NCBI RefSeq assembly: GCF_034522235.1
Contig: NZ_JAXHLN010000003.1
Span: 2,232,001 to 2,296,000, forward strand
Direction of reading: 5' to 3'
Source: Thiohalophilus sp.
GTDB taxonomy: Bacteria > Pseudomonadota > Gammaproteobacteria > UBA6429 > Thiohalophilaceae
DNA: 64,000 bases
In this document: piece by piece, positions 4,698-60,655 of the stretch
How positions within the stretch are numbered: position 1 is the first letter of the stretch
Layout of the letters: every line of letters starts with the position of its first letter
Notes under the pieces: generated by a model
The model's database searches: none
Told to the model about the DNA's origin: nothing
Seen by the model: only the letters and a program-made list of their open reading frames with translations
Program-made: the position numbers and the translations under genes

Positions 4698-5351
4698 ATG
4701 CGTTCCCCCGGCAATTATCTGCTGCTGTTTTTTGTCGCCCTGGTGGTGATCCTGTTCATCCAGATCCAGATCTTCTCGCTGGTATTGAGCAAGCTCGGGC
4801 TGTCCCCCCACTCGGCCGCGTTGTTATTGATCACCACCCTGCTGGGCAGCGCGGTCAATTTGCCACTGGCCAGGGTCAAAGCCGAGAAGCCGCCCGAACC
4901 GCCACCGCAACCGCCGGCTTACTGGCCGTTCAAACTGCCGCCGTTCACCGGTTATACCGTCATCGCCATCAACGTGGGCGGGGCCATGGTGCCGATCCTG
5001 TTCTCCCTCTATCTGTTTCTCAGCCAGCCGCTGCCGCTGCCAAGCGTCCTGCTGGCCATTGGTATCGTCAGCGCCATCAGTTACGGCTTCAGCCGGCCCG
5101 TTGCCGGGCTGGGCATCGGCATGCCGATCTTCATCGCGCCCCTGACCGCCGCCGTGGTTGCCCTGCTGCTCGCGCCGGAACACAGCCCGCCACTGGCCTA
5201 TATCTGCGGCACCCTGGGCGTGCTGATCGGCGCCGATCTGTTGCGACTCAAGGACATCCCCAAACTCGGCGCGCCCCTCGCCTCCATCGGCGGCGCGGGG
5301 ACCTTCGACGGAATATTTTTTACCGGCATCATCGCCGTGCTGCTGGCATAG
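4698..5351 (+). CDS. DUF1614 family membrane protein
   Basis: 217-residue integral membrane protein with about six or seven hydrophobic segments, a proline-rich cytoplasmic or periplasmic linker (PPEPPPQPPAYWPFKLPP, near residues 65-82) and a conserved C-terminus (GADLLRLKDIPKLGAPLASIGGAGTFDGIFF) characteristic of DUF1614. Function unknown. It starts 4 bases after the PRPP-synthase-like gene and is likely translated from the same transcript. Confidence 0.8.
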   Translation: MRSPGNYLLLFFVALVVILFIQIQIFSLVLSKLGLSPHSAALLLITTLLGSAVNLPLARVKAEKPPEPPPQPPAYWPFKLPPFTGYTVIAINVGGAMVPILFSLYLFLSQPLPLPSVLLAIGIVSAISYGFSRPVAGLGIGMPIFIAPLTAAVVALLLAPEHSPPLAYICGTLGVLIGADLLRLKDIPKLGAPLASIGGAGTFDGIFFTGIIAVLLA

Positions 5352-5360
5352 AGAGGAAAA

Positions 5361-5456
5361 AATTTTGAATTTTAAATGTTGAATTTTGAATGGTATGTGA
5401 TGCCGAAACTTAAAATTCAACATTCAACATTATATTTTTTTGCCTCTGCGTTAGAG
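5361..5456. repeat. Palindromic repeat family A, copy 1, with family B remnant
   Basis: Left arm 5361-5390 and right arm 5411-5437 are inverted copies made of AT-rich 7-mers (ATTCAAA / ATTCAAC). The right arm is followed by TGCCTCTGCGTTAGAG (5441-5456), a piece of a family B arm, so this is probably an A element lying in a decayed B element. It sits between DUF1614 and the SDR gene. Confidence 0.85.
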
Positions 5457-8216: not shown

Positions 8217-8320
8217 AAACTCACTAGAAAAACCGAACCGGCGGGTATTCTAGCAAAAGACATTCCATTGAATACATACAAGTACCCAATTCAGCGTAAT
8301 ACCCGGGATAAAAAATATTT

Positions 8321-8469
8321 TACCGCAGAGACGCAGAGCTTTATCTTTATAAAGTGATCTGAGTCGATACGAAACAACCAGAAATAGCCTTGTTATTAAC
8401 AATCTTTTCTTCGTGTCTTGGTGTCTTCGTGGTTAATATTTTCTTTGCGTTCTCTGCGTCTCTGCGGTG
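8321..8469. repeat. Family B copy 3 enclosing a half family C element
   Basis: Family B left arm at 8321-8339 (TTACCGCAGAGACGCAGAG) and right arm at 8441-8469 (GTTCTCTGCGTCTCTGCGG). Inside, at 8404-8436, is the right arm of family C (CTTCGTGTCTTGGTGTCTTC words). The matching C left arm is not recognisable. It lies between the ABC ATPase gene and the HD-GYP gene. Confidence 0.8.
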
Positions 8470-8474
8470 AGGCT

Positions 8475-9716
8475 TCAGATCAGCGATTCGTCCTGGATGA
8501 CGGCCGGCAGGTCGATGTCGCATTCGTCGTTGTGGAGGATTTTACGGATTTCGAGTTTCTGCTTGCCCTCGCGCCAGCGGGGATGAGCCAGGTTGATCAG
8601 CTTGGGTTTGACGTAGCGCTCGCCCTTGCTGTTAATAACCAGCAGCACAATGGGGCGCAGGCGACTTTTCTCACTGGCGGAGACCACGATACCGGTCTGG
8701 CCCATATTGAGCTGCACCATGCTGCCAATGGGATAGATGCCCAGGCATTTGATGAACTGCTCGACCAGCTCCTGCTCAAAGTCTTCGCTGATCCATTCGT
8801 ACATGTTTTTCAGCGCCTCATAGGGCGGCATGCCGTCGTGGTAACAACGATCACTGGTAATAGCGTCGTACACATCGACGATAGAGACGATCTTGGTCAT
8901 CTGGTTAACCTGATCCCCATTCAATCCGTGCGGATAGCCCTTGCCACTGACCCGTTCATGGTGATGCAGGACGATGTCGAGCGACTCCTGCGGAATATCC
9001 CCCTTGGGCACCAGCAGTTCGTGACCTTTTGGTGCATGAGTCTTGACGATCTCGAACTCTTCCGGCGTCAGTCGAGCAGGCTTGTTGAGTATCTCCAGTG
9101 GAATGCGCATTTTGCCGATATCGTGTAACAGCGCACCCAGCCCCATCAATTCCAGCTCTTCCTTATCCATCCCCAGATAACGGCCAAAGGTAACCGCCAG
9201 AATACAGGTGTTCATGCAATGGGTGACGGTATATTCATCACGATGTTTGAGATGCGACAGCCAGGCCATGGCATTGGGGCTGTGGGTAATGCTTTCGGTA
9301 ATTTCAGTAACCAGATGACGGGCCGTGTTGGTATCCAGGCTGTTTCCCAGGCGCACATCTTCCATCAGGGTTTCGATATAGGTTTTGGTCCGACCGTGGA
9401 TCGGCCGGGCTTCCTCTAACGCTTCCTGAAAATGTTTCTCCTCGCGTTCGGCTTCCTTTTCCGCCTCGAATTTCGACGGTGTGGCTACCGCCGGTGGCGG
9501 GCGGCTGGCCAGTGTTTGCAGCTCGGGGATCACCGACTCATGGGAACGTTCGGTATCGACATAAACATGGGTGCAACAACGATTGAGCTCGGCCAGCTCC
9601 TCTTCACCGGAAACCAGCACGCCCTCGAGTAAAAACGAGGTTTGTGACCAACCGCAATCCAGGTCGCTAACAAACATCCCCTCCTTGAGACTGCCGACAT
9701 CGAGTTTAACCTTCAT
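8475..9716 (-). CDS. HD-GYP domain cyclic-di-GMP phosphodiesterase, DUF3391 N-terminus
   Basis: 413-residue cytosolic protein. Residues 1-130 form the DUF3391 domain often found before HD-GYP modules, with an acidic helical linker near 82-105. Residues about 150-330 are the HD-GYP domain: HDIGK at 198-202 and HHHERVSGKGYP at 251-262, so the metal ligands and GYP motif are intact and c-di-GMP hydrolysis is expected. No receiver domain or membrane segment is seen. Monocistronic between repeats and purL. Confidence 0.92.
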   Translation of the reverse strand: MKVKLDVGSLKEGMFVSDLDCGWSQTSFLLEGVLVSGEEELAELNRCCTHVYVDTERSHESVIPELQTLASRPPPAVATPSKFEAEKEAEREEKHFQEALEEARPIHGRTKTYIETLMEDVRLGNSLDTNTARHLVTEITESITHSPNAMAWLSHLKHRDEYTVTHCMNTCILAVTFGRYLGMDKEELELMGLGALLHDIGKMRIPLEILNKPARLTPEEFEIVKTHAPKGHELLVPKGDIPQESLDIVLHHHERVSGKGYPHGLNGDQVNQMTKIVSIVDVYDAITSDRCYHDGMPPYEALKNMYEWISEDFEQELVEQFIKCLGIYPIGSMVQLNMGQTGIVVSASEKSRLRPIVLLVINSKGERYVKPKLINLAHPRWREGKQKLEIRKILHNDECDIDLPAVIQDESLI

Positions 9717-15248: not shown

Positions 15249-15767
15249 ATGACCACATCAACACCCTCGCCTGCGCCGCTTTACCGGCGCCTGTTTGCCA
15301 TGCTCTACGACGGTCTGCTGCTTTTGGCAGTACTGCTTATCGCCTCGGCCATTCCCCTGATTTTCACCGGTGGTGAGGCGATCGAGGGACACAATCTGCT
15401 ATTGACCGGTTACTTTCTGCTCATCTGCTTCGGCTTTTTTGGCGGGTTCTGGACCCACGGCGGCCAAACGCTGGGCATGCGGGCCTGGCGTCTGCAACTG
15501 GTTCAAGACCATGCTGGCGCGCTGGACTGGCGCGCTGCCCTGTTGCGTTTTCTTAGCGGGTTGCCCGGCTGGCTGGTGTTGATTCTGGGGCTGGCGGTGT
15601 ACTTCAACCCGCAATTACAACTGCCGGGACTTCTGCACTGGCTGCAAAGCCTGCCCCACGGCAGCGTGGCCCTGATCGGTCTGATCTGGCTGGGATTCGA
15701 CAACTGGCCCAATGGTTGGCGGGAACGCGTGACCCACACCCGCGTCGTTCTCCTACTCAAATCCTGA
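15249..15767 (+). CDS. RDD family membrane protein
   Basis: 172-residue inner-membrane protein with three to four transmembrane helices. The N-terminal ...YRRLFAMLYDGLLLL... keeps the R..D pattern that names the family, and GQTLGMRAWRLQL is the second conserved block. Function unknown; some RDD proteins are cation antiporters. ATG 15249 is preferred over an in-frame TTG 6 bases upstream. Common neighbour of lptG in gammaproteobacteria. Confidence 0.85.
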   Translation: MTTSTPSPAPLYRRLFAMLYDGLLLLAVLLIASAIPLIFTGGEAIEGHNLLLTGYFLLICFGFFGGFWTHGGQTLGMRAWRLQLVQDHAGALDWRAALLRFLSGLPGWLVLILGLAVYFNPQLQLPGLLHWLQSLPHGSVALIGLIWLGFDNWPNGWRERVTHTRVVLLLKS

Positions 15768-15791
15768 CCCCTTTTCGCCAAGTCTGAAAAC

Positions 15792-15951
15792 TAACGCAGA
15801 GTTCGCGGAGACGCAGAGGCGCGGAGAAAATGATTTGTAACGCCCGGTTCACGGCTCGTTTTTCGTTCTTCCCGGTACCATTGTCGCTCAATGAAGTCAT
15901 TATCAAAACTCTGCGACTCTGCGACTCTGCGCCTCTGCGTCCTCCGCGTTA
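15792..15951. repeat. Palindromic repeat family B, copy 4
   Basis: Left arm 15792-15826 (TAACGCAGAGTTCGCGGAGA...) and right arm 15909-15951 (five CTCTGCG-type 8-base words ending CCTCCGCGTTA). The left arm is followed by GGAGAAAATGATTTGTAA and the right arm by TTTCCAGA, both shared with other B copies. It fills the convergent junction of the RDD gene and lptG. Confidence 0.9.
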
Positions 15952-15989
15952 ATTTCCAGAGCATCTGAGAAAAGTATGCGAATGGCGGT

Positions 15990-17051
15990 CTAGCGTAATC
16001 GCCGGAACCAGAACAGGGTAATGCCGATCACCAGTGCAGTCGGCAGGGCCGCCGCCAGGGCCGGTGGCAGGTTATAGACCAGTCCCATTTGCCCGGCCAG
16101 ACGGTTGCCGATGTAAAACACAATACCAATCAAAAAACCGATCAGAATCTGTTGCCCGATACTGGTGTGACGTTGTGCGCCGAACACGAACGGCACCGCG
16201 AGCAAGACCATGGCTGCCAGTGTAAACGGCATGACCAGTTTGCCCCACATCGCCAGCTCATACTGCCCCGAATCCAGGCCGTTCTCTTTGAGATAGTCGA
16301 TATAACTTTCCAGCTTCCAGACCGCCAGGGTATCGGGGTCCACCGAGACAACATTGATCAGGGCCGGATCCAGCAGGGTCTGCCAGGGTAATTCCTTGAC
16401 AGTCTCCTGGCGAACCGCCAGCCCCTCGAAATCATAACGCGTCACCTTGTTTAACAACCACTGCTCACCGTCATAACGGGCGCTTTTGGCCCGCAGCAGG
16501 GTGCGCATGCGCTGCCCTTCGAAGGTATACAGGTGGATACCCCGCAATTGCGCCTGACTGTCGACACGCCGCACATTGATATAGGTGTCCCCGTCCCGGG
16601 CCCACAAGCCATACTGGGTATTGAGGCTGATCTTCGCCCCCATCAATTGCAAACGTTTCTGCGAACCGTATTCCAGTGCCGGCGGTGCCACCACCTCACC
16701 GATCACCATGGCCAGCAGGATCAGCATCGCCGCGGTTTTCATCGTCGCCCAGACGATACGGTTCAAAGAGAGTCCGGCGGTACGCATCACCACCAGTTCC
16801 CGATTGTTGGCCAGCATCCCCAGTCCCAGCATGGTGCCCAGCAGCGTCGCCATGGGGAAGATCTCGTACATCTGTCGCGGCATGCTGAGCAGGGTATAGA
16901 CCAGCGCATGCCAAAGAGAGTAGGTTCCGCGACCGACCTGATCGAGCTCATCCACAAAACCGATCAGGGCGAACAGGGCTACCAATACCACCAGCACCGA
17001 CAAAACGCCGTTAGTGATCGCCTGTCCGATATAACGTTCGAGGATCTTCAT
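15990..17051 (-). CDS. lptG: LPS export ABC transporter permease LptG
   Basis: 353-residue YjgP/YjgQ-family permease, a half of the LptB2FG complex that extracts LPS from the inner membrane. Six transmembrane helices with a large periplasmic beta-jellyroll between helices 3 and 4 (about residues 95-265). Start MKILERYIGQAI at 17051 overlaps the lptF stop by 4 bases; the open frame upstream to 17147 is inside lptF. Co-transcribed with lptF. Confidence 0.96.
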   Translation of the reverse strand: MKILERYIGQAITNGVLSVLVVLVALFALIGFVDELDQVGRGTYSLWHALVYTLLSMPRQMYEIFPMATLLGTMLGLGMLANNRELVVMRTAGLSLNRIVWATMKTAAMLILLAMVIGEVVAPPALEYGSQKRLQLMGAKISLNTQYGLWARDGDTYINVRRVDSQAQLRGIHLYTFEGQRMRTLLRAKSARYDGEQWLLNKVTRYDFEGLAVRQETVKELPWQTLLDPALINVVSVDPDTLAVWKLESYIDYLKENGLDSGQYELAMWGKLVMPFTLAAMVLLAVPFVFGAQRHTSIGQQILIGFLIGIVFYIGNRLAGQMGLVYNLPPALAAALPTALVIGITLFWFRRLR

Positions 17052-27337: not shown

Positions 27338-27912
27338 GCCCCGTGACCGGGATCCTGCTGGCCGCCGGCCTCAGCCGGCGCTTTGGCAGCAACAAACTGC
27401 TGCAGCCCCTCCCCGATCAGATCCCCATGGTGGTGCAGGCCGCGCGCAAACTCAAAGCCGTGTTACCCGAAAGCGTGGCCGTGATCGGCCCCGATGATCC
27501 GCGCACCGCGGAATTATTAAGCAAAGAAGGCCTGCAGATTGTGATCAACCCGCAGCCCGAAGCCGGCATGGGCCGCAGCCTGGCCTGCGCCATCCGCGCC
27601 AGCCATGACGCCCCGGGCTGGTTGATCACCCTCGCCGACATGCCCTGGATCGACAAACAAACGATCCGCACGGTCGCCACGGCCGTGCAACAACCCCGGG
27701 ATATCGTTGCCCCCCTCTACGGCGATCGCCGCGGCCATCCGGTCGGCTTCGGCAGCGCCTATGTCCGGGATCTGTTGGCCCTGGACGGGGACAACGGCGC
27801 CCGTTCCATTCTCAACGCCAACCGGCAACATCTGACGCTGATTCCGGTCAACGATCCGGGTGTATTGCGGGATGTGGATTACCCGGAGGACATATCGAGT
27901 GCTGAGTGCTGA
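27334..27912 (+). CDS. MocA/MobA-like nucleotidyltransferase
   Basis: 192-residue NTP transferase of the MobA-like family; MocA attaches CMP to molybdopterin. Motif LLAAGLSRRFGSNKLL at the N-terminus, DMPW in the centre, and GHPVGFGSAY (RGHP motif) follow the CTP:molybdopterin cytidylyltransferase pattern. Coupled to xdhC, which supports a role in molybdo-hydroxylase maturation. The last five codons and the stop are read from a GAGTGCT tandem repeat, so the original C-terminus may have been altered. Confidence 0.87.
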   Translation: MSPVTGILLAAGLSRRFGSNKLLQPLPDQIPMVVQAARKLKAVLPESVAVIGPDDPRTAELLSKEGLQIVINPQPEAGMGRSLACAIRASHDAPGWLITLADMPWIDKQTIRTVATAVQQPRDIVAPLYGDRRGHPVGFGSAYVRDLLALDGDNGARSILNANRQHLTLIPVNDPGVLRDVDYPEDISSAEC

Positions 27913-28081
27913 GTGCTGAGTGCTGAGTGCTGAGTGCTGAGTGCTGAGTACTAAGTACTAAGAGCCGGGCACAAAATTAATTTTTAATTGACCACAAGCT
28001 ATCATTTAGCCAGTTTGTCAGGGAGCGCTATGCGCACCCTGACCTACCCGACTTGGTAATAAGTACTCAGAACTCGGCACT
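27897..28081. repeat. Heptad tandem palindrome, family E
   Basis: Seven perfect GAGTGCT units at 27897-27945, then GAGTACT and AAGTACT variants to 27960. The right arm at 28050-28081 (TAAGTACTCAGAACTCGGCA) is the inverted, diverged copy of the same heptads. About 90 bases of AT-rich spacer lie between. It ends 3 bases before the DUF2970 stop and supplies the stop codon of the mocA-like gene. Confidence 0.9.
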
Positions 28082-35859: not shown

Positions 35860-36579
35860 CTAGTGGTCGCGGGTCAGTGACTGGGCAAACAACAGATCCT
35901 CCCACGCCTTGCGTTTGTCCGCCGGGGTCCGCAACAGATAGGCCGGGTGATAGGTCACCACCACCGGGGTGCCGGTGGCTTCGAGCCGGTGTACCGTGCC
36001 GCGCAGCCGGGCCAGGCTGGTCGTGCAATCCAGCAGCCGCTGTGCGGCGACACGGCCCAGGGCGATAATGAGATCGGGCTGGATCAGCTCAATCTGCCGC
36101 CGCAGATAGGGAAAACAGGCCGCCGCCTCTTCCGGGCGGGGATCCCGGTTGTTGGGCGGACGGCATTTGAGAATGTTGGCGATATAGACCTGCTCGCGGG
36201 AGAGCCCCACCGCCTGCAGCATGGCATTGAGCAGCTTGCCGGCCCGGCCGACGAACGGCTCGCCCTGGCGATCCTCATCAACTCCGGGCGCCTCGCCGAT
36301 GATCAGCCAGCGGGCCTGCTCATTGCCCACCCCGAATACCGTCTGGGTCCGGCTCTGGTGCAACTCGCACAACTGACAGACCGCCACCTGCTGGCGCAGC
36401 GCCGACCAGTCCAGTTCACTGACATCGGGCCGCCCCTCGCCCGCGGGCACCGCCGGTTCCGTGGCCGGTTGTGACAGCGGCGCCATCTCCTCGGCCGGCA
36501 TCACCCGATCCCGCCGCACCCAGACATCGATCCCCATCGCGTCCAGGTAGCGGCGTTGTTGTGGCGTGACAGGAGACAT
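35860..36579 (-). CDS. Type 4 (4Fe-4S) uracil-DNA glycosylase
   Basis: 239-residue family 4 UDG. After a 60-residue variable N-terminal region come the cluster cysteines (CQLC, then ILKC and AACF), motif 1 [20 protein letters not shown] and motif 3 TYHPAYLLR. Removes uracil from deaminated DNA. First gene before rimI; the family was once annotated as a phage SPO1 DNA polymerase-related domain. Confidence 0.92.
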
Positions 36580-36608
36580 GGGATGAGTTTACCACCTCCG
36601 ACAGAAAA

Positions 36609-36769
36609 GGGACGAGGTACGAGTGACGAGTAACGAGGCAAAGAGCACAAAAATTCACCACGAAGACCCGAAGTCACGAAGCAATCAATTCGTTTTCTTC
36701 GTGTCTTCGGGTCTTCGGGTCTTCGTGGTTAACGCTTTTCCTCGTCCCTCGTCACTCGTACCTCGTCCC
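36609..36769. repeat. Nested palindrome: family C copy 3 inside family D copy 1
   Basis: Outer family D arms 36609-36638 and 36740-36769 are 30 bases each, made of ACGAGTG/ACGAGGT 7-mers, and differ at about three positions. Inside lies a full family C palindrome with arms 36657-36681 (CCACGAAGACCCGAAGTCAC...) and 36697-36729 (GTCTTCGG repeated). The whole can fold into one long stem. Between leuA and the UDG gene. Confidence 0.93.
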
Positions 36770-36783
36770 TGGCCGCGGATGTG

Positions 36784-38334
36784 TTACACATCCGCGGCCT
36801 GCGGATGTTCCCGCTCGACCGGCGAGACGATCTTGTTCAGCGCGTTGATGTAGGCCTTGGCGGAGGCGATGACGATATCGGTATCGGCGCCCTGGCCGTT
36901 GACGATACGCCCGTCTTTTTCCATGCGCACGGTGACCTCGCCCTGGGCGTCGGTACCGCTGGTGATGTTGTTCACCGAGTAGAGCAGTAGCTCGGCACCG
37001 CTGTTGATCACCTGCTCAATCGCCCGAAAGGCCGCGTCCACCGGCCCGCCGCCGTCAGCCTCGGCCTGCTGTTCCTGACCATCCACATTGAGGGTGACGT
37101 TGGCGTGCGGGGTCTCGCCGGTTTCGGAACAAACCCGCATGGCGACCAGATGGATATGCTCGTTCTCGGCGGAAATGCCGGTTTCGGTCACCAGCGCCTG
37201 CAGATCCTCGTCGAAGATCTCGTGTTTCTTGTCGGCCAGATTCTTGAAGCGGGCGAAGGCGTCGTTCAACTCGTCCTCGGAATCGAATTCCACGCCCAGC
37301 TCCTTGAGCCGCGAACGGAAGGCGTTACGCCCCGAATGCTTGCCCAGCACCATGCGGTTGGCCGACCAGCCGACATCCTCGGCGCTCATGATCTCGTAGG
37401 TCTCGCGGCTTTTGAGCACACCGTCCTGATGAATACCCGACTCATGGGCAAAGGCGTTGGCACCAACGATCGCCTTGTTGGGCTGCACCGCAAAGCCGGT
37501 GATGCCGGCGACCAGCTTGGAGGTCGGGACGATCTCGCGAGTATCGAGATGATCGACACTGCAGGGGAAGATGTCCTTGCGGGTCTTGACCGTCATGACG
37601 ATCTCTTCCAGCGAGGCGTTGCCGGCCCGCTCGCCCAGGCCGTTGATGGTGCACTCGACCTGGCGTGCGCCGTTCAACACCGCGGAGAGGGAGTTGGCCA
37701 CGGCCAGACCCAGATCGTTATGACAATGCACGGAGAAGACCGCCTTGTCCGAGTTGGGCACCCGTTCGATCAGGCTGCGAATCGTCTCGCCGAACTGCTG
37801 CGGCACATTATAGCCGACGGTGTCGGGAATATTGATGGTGGTGGCGCCGGCGTCGATTACCTGCTCGACAATGCGGCACAGAAAATCCAGCTCGGAACGT
37901 CCGGCGTCCTCGGCGGAGAACTCGACGTTGTCGGTGTACTGGCGCGCGCGCTTGACCGCGCGTACCGCCTGCTCGACCACCTGGTCCGGCTCCATGCGCA
38001 GCTTCATCTTCATGTGGATGGGCGAGGTGGCGATGAAGGTGTGGATGCGCGCGCTGTTAGCCTCCTTCAATGCCTCACCGGCACGATCGATGTCCGTGTC
38101 CAGCGCCCGCGACAGACCGCAGACGGTGCTGTCCTTGATGCTGCGGGCCACCGCACGTACGGCATCGAAGTCGCCGGTACTGGCGATGGGGAAACCGGCC
38201 TCGATCACATCCACATGCATGCGCTCCAGGGCGCGGGCGATTCGGATCTTCTCCTCCTTGGTCATGGAGGCGCCGGGGCTCTGTTCGCCATCGCGCAAGG
38301 TGGTATCGAATATGATTAATCTGTCGTCACTCAT
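36784..38334 (-). CDS. leuA: 2-isopropylmalate synthase
   Basis: 516-residue enzyme of the first committed step of leucine synthesis. Catalytic TIM barrel with [11 protein letters not shown] at 10-20, [12 protein letters not shown] and NGLGERAGN; the C-terminal LeuA allosteric domain (about 390-516) binds leucine for feedback inhibition. Preceded by a leucine-rich leader ORF, so regulation by attenuation is likely. Downstream of pssA and the ilv genes on the same strand. Confidence 0.97.
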
Positions 38335-60340: not shown

Positions 60341-60655
60341 CAGGGCCGAGGGACGAGTGACGAGTGACGAGGAAAAGCAGGTTTGCTGGCTCTCGCGACA
60401 CTTGTACATCCTGTACATCGCGCGGATTGGTACTATGCAAATTTAGAGGCGTGGAGAAAATTATTTGTGAAGCCCCACAAAGTCTTGCTCTGCGACTCCG
60501 CGCCTCCGCGACCTCTGCGTTTTTCCAGAAAAATCTGAAAAATGGGACCACCGGAAATGAAACGGGACACCGAAGTGCCCCGTTACAGGAACTAACGAGT
60601 AAGGCAAAGCCGGGTTGGCTTTGCCTCGTCCCTCGTAACTCGTCCCTCGGCCCTG
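60341..60655. repeat. Nested palindrome: family B copy 7 inside family D copy 3
   Basis: Family D arms 60341-60372 (CAGGGCCGAGGGACGAGTGA...) and 60624-60655 are 32 bases each and complementary except at two positions. Between them are a family B element with short left arm (60444-60461) and clear right arm (60486-60520, CTCTGCGACTCCGCGCCTCC...), then the apbC terminator and a GGCAAAGCC hairpin. It accounts for nearly the whole 369-base gap between dcd and apbC; no gene is seen. Confidence 0.88.
60563..60582 (-). terminator. Probable terminator of apbC
   Basis: 8-bp stem with one mismatch (CGGGACAC, loop CGAA, GTGCCCCG) followed on the minus strand by TTTCATTT. Located about 84 bases past the apbC stop, within the composite repeat. 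Confidence 0.55.

Follow-up and report, generated by a model that had tools for sequence, protein, structure and literature searches.

Foldback-type elements have inverted arms of short tandem repeats around heterogeneous middles and transpose with target duplication. Small dispersed repeats of Nostoc that are nested and associated with heptad arrays were reportedly described by Elhai and others in 2008. Hepta- and octanucleotide repeats in intergenic DNA have been reported in several bacterial groups. In Geobacter metallireducens, paired sites of tandem octa- and heptanucleotides have been termed 'predicted global regulator binding sites' and divided into classes 1 to 3. Each site has three to five tandem units of the seven- or eight-nucleotide type, is paired with another on the opposite strand and is multicopy; the distance between paired sites varies in classes 1 and 2, and the insertion sequences ISGme8 and ISGme9 may lie a constant distance away from class 1 sites (PMC2700814). 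The GGGAATC heptads of Xanthomonas are dispersed and mostly intergenic, have variable positions, come mostly as four units near the end of the upstream gene and form 70 and 75 convergent inverted pairs in two species (PMC4692102). TAACTGA arrays in one marine Beggiatoaceae genome are nearly all direct, with 169 sets to one inverted (PMC4679880). Palindromes can also enclose other palindromes: REP dimers lie inside longer palindromes, as with GTAG-15 of Anabaena variabilis and others, and outer palindromes without a REP were not found in A. variabilis or H. neapolitanus but number hundreds in T. roseum (PMC3733652).

Here, we describe a nested palindrome built from two unrelated short-repeat families, D outside and C inside. 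Both families resemble the Geobacter sites in their tandem seven- and eight-nucleotide units, their opposite-strand pairs and their multicopy nature. However, the guest there is an insertion sequence, whereas here it is a second repeat hairpin, and protein binding at the Geobacter sites is a hypothesis of their authors (PMC2700814). Like the Xanthomonas heptads, D consists of dispersed convergent heptad pairs with variable positions, but the Xanthomonas unit is of the G-quadruplex type, and nesting is not mentioned in the consulted portion of that article (PMC4692102). The REP dimer case is likewise a repeat palindrome within another; its guest, however, is a REP with a tag, none of the quoted outer palindromes is a tandem array, and D, unlike the outer palindromes of A. 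variabilis and H. neapolitanus, is also found alone (PMC3733652). Paired arrays and nested palindromes are both known kinds of arrangement, and what may be new is the strict order described below. Geobacter belongs to another phylum, and its unit sequences are other than those of D and C. Among open-licence papers, we found none on the D or C sequences or on the D-C nest, and none reporting that two such families combine in a fixed order, with fixed partners and at a fixed junction.

The nest occupies positions 36608-36770 of the 64-kb stretch of DNA that was analyzed (the window), in the gap between leuA and the gene for a family-4 uracil-DNA glycosylase (udg). Its outer layer is D, a heptad repeat NCGAGNN with the core CGAG; its inner layer is C, an octad repeat ACGAAGAC. 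The features are as follows:

35860..36579, minus strand: udg, family-4 uracil-DNA glycosylase gene, downstream (TIGR00758, 229 bits, cut-off 125)
36608..36638, plus strand: D left arm, AGGG at the outer end, then heptads ACGAGGT ACGAGTG ACGAGTA ACGAGG
36639..36660, plus strand: long junction, CAAAGAGCAC followed by the C outer end AAAAATTCACCA
36661..36681, plus strand: C left arm, three octads (CGAAGACC CGAAGTCA CGAAG)
36682..36696, no strand: C loop, 15 nt separating the strict arms
36697..36725, minus strand: C right arm, four octads
36726..36739, minus strand: short junction, read on the minus strand as AAAAGCGTTAACCA, the C border directly abutting the D arm
36740..36770, minus strand: D right arm, read on the minus strand as AGGGACGAGGTACGAGTGACGAGGGACGAGG
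36784..38334, minus strand: leuA, 2-isopropylmalate synthase (NF002087, 919 bits, cut-off 729)

The order D-left, C-left, loop, C-right, D-right is the one given in a preliminary description of this DNA, which also had D arms of 30 bases with about three changes and both C arms in place. Our measurements agree. Extended by the search tool, the D arms run over 36608-36643 and 36735-36770 (36 nt, 92% complementary, three mismatches), with a tandem part proper of 31 nt per arm and two mismatches; the complementary C arms are 36661-36684 and 36694-36717 (24 nt, 92% complementary). C is not fully symmetrical, as its left arm has three octads and its right arm four. The D arm lies 13 nt from the leuA stop codon. 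A perfect 14-bp hairpin also spans that stop codon (36771-36799); in another species of the genus the stem there differs in sequence but keeps its pairing, the last codons and the 3' flank having changed together.

The single stem-loop of about 160 bases that had been proposed is supported by predicted folding: positions 36590-36790 fold into one long stem-loop at −111.2 kcal/mol, compared with −55.8 ± 4.4 for 200 dinucleotide shuffles (z = −12.7), none of which was as stable. The leuA transcript would presumably carry the D-C compound as a stable, putative 3'-end RNA hairpin. No Rfam family reached its gathering score anywhere within the window. Simple scans of 36560-36860 found no promoter pattern and no intrinsic terminator (a short GC-rich stem plus a T run, with loops of up to 8 nt covered).

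Both families are abundant in the source genome (G000, 3.06 Mb). Allowing one mismatch, the D pattern has 444 matches there, compared with 1 for its reversed-pattern control, and the C pattern has 255, compared with 8; the composite nest sequence has at least 103 matches (40 of 187 candidate places scored). Our sample comprised 89 stretches around pattern matches, 480 kb of continuous source-genome DNA including the window, and 470.5 kb of continuous DNA from one other species of the same genus (G001), the continuous stretches being picked by synteny. Both D and C consist of tandem seven- or eight-nucleotide units in which a core is conserved and other positions vary. D forms convergent pairs of opposite-strand arrays at a variable distance, with 62 arm pairings (some arms used twice) and spacers of 7 to 380 nt. 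A further 30 D arms have no partner within 400 nt by pattern, although a degenerate partner is visible for some. By inspection, D interiors look unrelated to one another, except in a few local duplicates that share theirs; they hold small loops, terminator-like hairpins, REP pairs, C hairpins or other intergenic DNA, and at D places common to the two species the interior is mostly ordinary orthologous DNA. At L119 813-881, L148 1628-1697 and L165 476-545, one arm has about nine units, mostly alike, and its partner two or three.

The borders of D and C, by inspection about AGGG and AAAANNTTMACCA, are not the unpaired GTAG or CGTC tags that mark the 20-40 bp palindromes of REPs; REPs of the GTAGGAGC type are separate from both families and lie inside some D pairs. 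In the source genome at C3 ~1.518-1.529 Mb (L159 and L160), a long repeated cluster has D arms and GTAG-type REP pairs in alternation; a Y1 transposase gene lies at C3:1516055. C has two subfamilies, CGAAG and CCAAG, and both occur inside D. Four other tandem families have the same build: A (CGCAGAGN), N (TTGAATN), M (CTAGGTG) and T (GAGTGCT). Under a crude longest-ORF annotation of both species, 20 intergenic gaps contain D and 14 contain C, 2 being divergent in each case, compared with 70 divergent among 277 background gaps of at least 60 nt; seven source-genome D arms fall within called ORFs. Placement leans toward gene ends, on small numbers.

The layers follow a strict order. Among arms no more than 60 nt apart in the stretches from the two species, there are 35 junctions with D outside C and none with C outside D; similarly, 19 have A outside N and none has N outside A. 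These counts are pattern-based, so degenerate arms escape them, and one C-then-D row (L137) was judged to be a degenerate D unit, not C outside D. The remaining adjacencies are A{C} (2), D{A} (2), N{D} (2) and seven in other orientations (A>N< 3; D>C<, M<C>, M<D> and C<D> 1 each). Gaps between D and C are 13-15 nt at 22 of the 35 junctions and 22-24 nt at 9, the others being 17, 30, 33 and 50 nt, and the nest at leuA has one junction of each main class: the short one (36726..36739) and the long one (36639..36660). The long junction can be read as a remnant of the D interior joined to the C border. In the short junction, the C border begins directly where the D arm ends. Its AAAA may be shared by D and C, because D arms without C are also mostly followed by A.

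Partners are also chosen. Continuous stretches alone hold 12 D{C}, no D{N}, 2 A{C} and 19 A{N} (Fisher P = 2.6 × 10−7, a value that is too small because orthologues of the two species were counted separately, which leaves fewer independent events). Here and among the 35 and 19 junctions, each identical sequence entered the count once and orthologues entered separately; six stretches overlapping larger ones were excluded from adjacency and C-pair counts. A D arm lies within 60 nt outside 8 of the 31 C arms in continuous stretches, compared with a rough expectation of 1.2 for random intergenic placement. C also stands alone: of 61 C pairs, 37 lack any D arm within 60 nt and keep their own border, and among the 24 with a nearby D, only 4 have D within 60 nt on both sides. 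The recurrence of one inside-outside order at many places suggests repeated settling of one family at a set position in the other. Strict order, fixed partners and a quantized junction are testable rules. By these rules, at least one family arrives, or becomes enclosed, at a particular point of another; they indicate array-directed insertion, not slippage alone.

D is the more widespread family. Exact D pattern matches number 242 and 164 in the two genus members, 142 in G028, 21 in G021, 20 in G022, 19 in G009, 13 in G023 and 12 in G018, and 0-3 in the other 32 of 40 genomes. C is concentrated in the genus, with 136 and 123 matches in its two members and 0-1 in the 12 other family genomes searched. 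Across 299 genomes of the phylum, 134 had a match to the C pattern, which is short and degenerate, most with 0-4 per strand, as for the reversed control; the largest totals besides the source genome were 14 (G201), 10 (G150), 9 (G189) and 7 (G213 and G280). At the D places of G028, C was absent by pattern from all 20 stretches.

We obtained the leuA-udg gap from 68 of 110 loci (the source locus included, and several genomes twice). By eye, G022 and G028, which share another genus, have D alone in this gap, without C; G023 has a D-like pair; L013, L017, L029 and L052 have D-like single arms; and most of the remaining loci have neither D nor C. The named loci whose udg genes are nearest belong mostly to uncultured gammaproteobacteria. 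Inheritance of D at this place is possible, and only that, because D-bearing loci are scattered on the leuA and udg tree, which we read without support values. Moreover, G010 and G012 have no D here, although their udg genes are 72-73% identical to that of the source genome, compared with 65% for G022 and G028, and the D of the latter two may be an independent arrival. The preliminary description had held that an empty D in sister strains would prove insertion. D without C does exist at this place, but at genus distance only, where independent arrivals are possible.

The other species of the genus has the D{C} nest at leuA-udg too. Between the two species, D is well preserved, with 51 of 54 positions identical in the left arm plus junction and 42 of 46 in the right arm plus junction (91-94%), whereas the C core is identical in 44 of 73 columns (60%; mean 47% and at most 58% in 300 shuffles). 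In both arms, one species has CGAAG as its strict C unit and the other has CCAAG, and 170-nt pieces of the two nests fold with nearly equal energies (−102.0 and −100.8). Sisters that carry both layers or neither, with co-varying arms, had been named as the outcome that would speak against insertion; half of this is seen here, since the second species has both layers and its C arms co-vary. Such covariation fits exchange between C copies or replacement in place as well as it fits selection for pairing. No clean site of D presence versus absence was found between the two species in the syntenic stretches, the candidates at C3 2155881 and 1672525 not being clean. At several intergenic places the species carry different families: window 5350-5442 (N versus A and C), 8263-8475 (A and C versus A and N) and 15745-15991 (A versus M), and source genome C3 ~1686320 (D versus M).

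A check for a small target duplication at 36639-36656 and 36730-36739 had been proposed; none is visible there by eye. For target duplication at 61 C elements, the mean longest match was 2.79, compared with 2.61 ± 0.12 when shuffled (14 of 200 as high); for 40 D elements, with L159, L160, L131 and L147 left out, it was 2.73, compared with 2.70 for shuffled pairs (98 of 200 as high). Old target duplications of C or D that have since decayed are conceivable. C and D differ from MITEs in showing no target-site duplications and, in D by inspection, no conserved shared interior. They are like foldback-type elements in their inverted short-tandem-repeat arms around heterogeneous middles, but not in transposition with target duplication. 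We sought a Y1 (RAYT) transposase, and no enzyme for C or D was identified by this search. Y1 was rejected as the driver of D, as it does not track D among the genomes searched: the source genome has 3 Y1 matches, three of the eight genomes with at least 10 D matches have none (G018, G021 and G023, the last 77% complete), and of the 27 genomes positive for Y1, 22 have under 10 D matches. No arms of the scanned families lie around one of the three source-genome Y1 genes, in the first 6.5 kb of L252.

On balance, we lean toward the view that the nest is a compound of two separate dispersed intergenic elements, with C placed inside D and D kept. D is a convergent pair of heptad arrays bracketing whatever stands between them, and C a compact octad hairpin. 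C would have been placed within D, against the inner edge of one of its arms, here the right one, leaving ~10 nt of the old D interior on its opposite side, before the split of the two species seen. Later, D would have persisted, and the C core would have been rewritten, or replaced by exchange with a different copy of C, its pairing retained. The wider spread of D, the loci with D alone and the C-free D places of G028 fit an entry of C into D in an ancestor of the genus. Counting against a clean insertion are the lack of a target duplication and the sole same-genus comparison, which is already nested. The D-C compound is real and common to the two species; most likely, C was placed into D, with a position-specific, recurrent tendency.

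The preliminary description had left the choice between insertion of one element into the other and a single hairpin that grew stepwise. We favor insertion, of C into D, because C is concentrated in the genus, D is not, and G022 and G028 have D alone. Growth by template switching, each layer copying the opposite flank, is disfavored by disagreement between arms at variable positions, and we regard it as very improbable. The D dinucleotides agree between arms, from the innermost outward, in 9 of 34, 10 of 28 and 10 of 20 cases, with shuffles giving 9.9, 7.1 and 7.2 (3581, 651 and 506 of 5000 as high; local duplicates L159, L160 and L131 left out). Because this agreement is no more than chance, one D arm was not copied from the other. 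C spacer bases likewise agree at chance level (36 of 61 versus 35.7 expected, and 23 of 46 versus 21.3), as do the middle C octads (P = 0.28). Copying would account for the strong pairing of both layers and for the type of the outermost C octad, which agrees in 57 of 61 pairs (P = 2 × 10−12), as the third or innermost also does above chance (P about 0.001). We read these agreements as subfamily marks, although some copying of C arms may have occurred. That C is dispersed on its own also speaks against growth in place. At several places, as judged by eye, the D elements of the two species differ by entire heptads in just one arm, and in G028 the left and right arms are often each uniform, with unlike unit types; both observations indicate slippage within a D arm.

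The reverse order, in which D came later, is unlikely. Single heptad arrays, always with the A-rich end inward, would have settled at the margins of hairpins already present (terminators, REP pairs or C), forming a shell around a core. D does bracket ordinary conserved intergenic DNA and terminator-like hairpins, with interiors that look unrelated; its arms are mutually discordant; unpaired arms, some with degenerate partners, stand beside the pairings; and one locus has, by eye, one D arm and an M-type arm opposite. However, at leuA-udg it is D that is better preserved, D is the wider-spread family with C concentrated in the genus, and D occurs without C in G028. More doubtful still is that the D-C compound arose once and then spread as a ready-made unit. 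Its strict order, fixed short junction and partner choice (D with C, A with N) would follow, and one locus has about three tandem copies of the D{C} unit in the second species, compared with one in the source genome. Yet D so rarely flanks C closely on both sides, the non-abutting sides and interiors look unrelated among copies, and both C subfamilies are found inside D.

Within the favored placement of C into D, D arms could tentatively be seen as landing pads, receiving repeated site-specific C insertions at a fixed inner step, as A would for N; we hold this to be possible, if somewhat doubtful. It recalls Geobacter, where insertion sequences can lie a set distance from arrays of a similar kind. 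If true, bacterial intergenic regions would accumulate ordered host-guest nests with fixed partners. The window holds a second nest at 60341-60655, an A-family arm enclosed by a D pair, and D and A arms are present at the matching place in the other species. At window 27897-28050, a GAGTGCT heptad pair has a hairpin in its interior, and the counterpart in the other species is a single array without the interior or the right arm.
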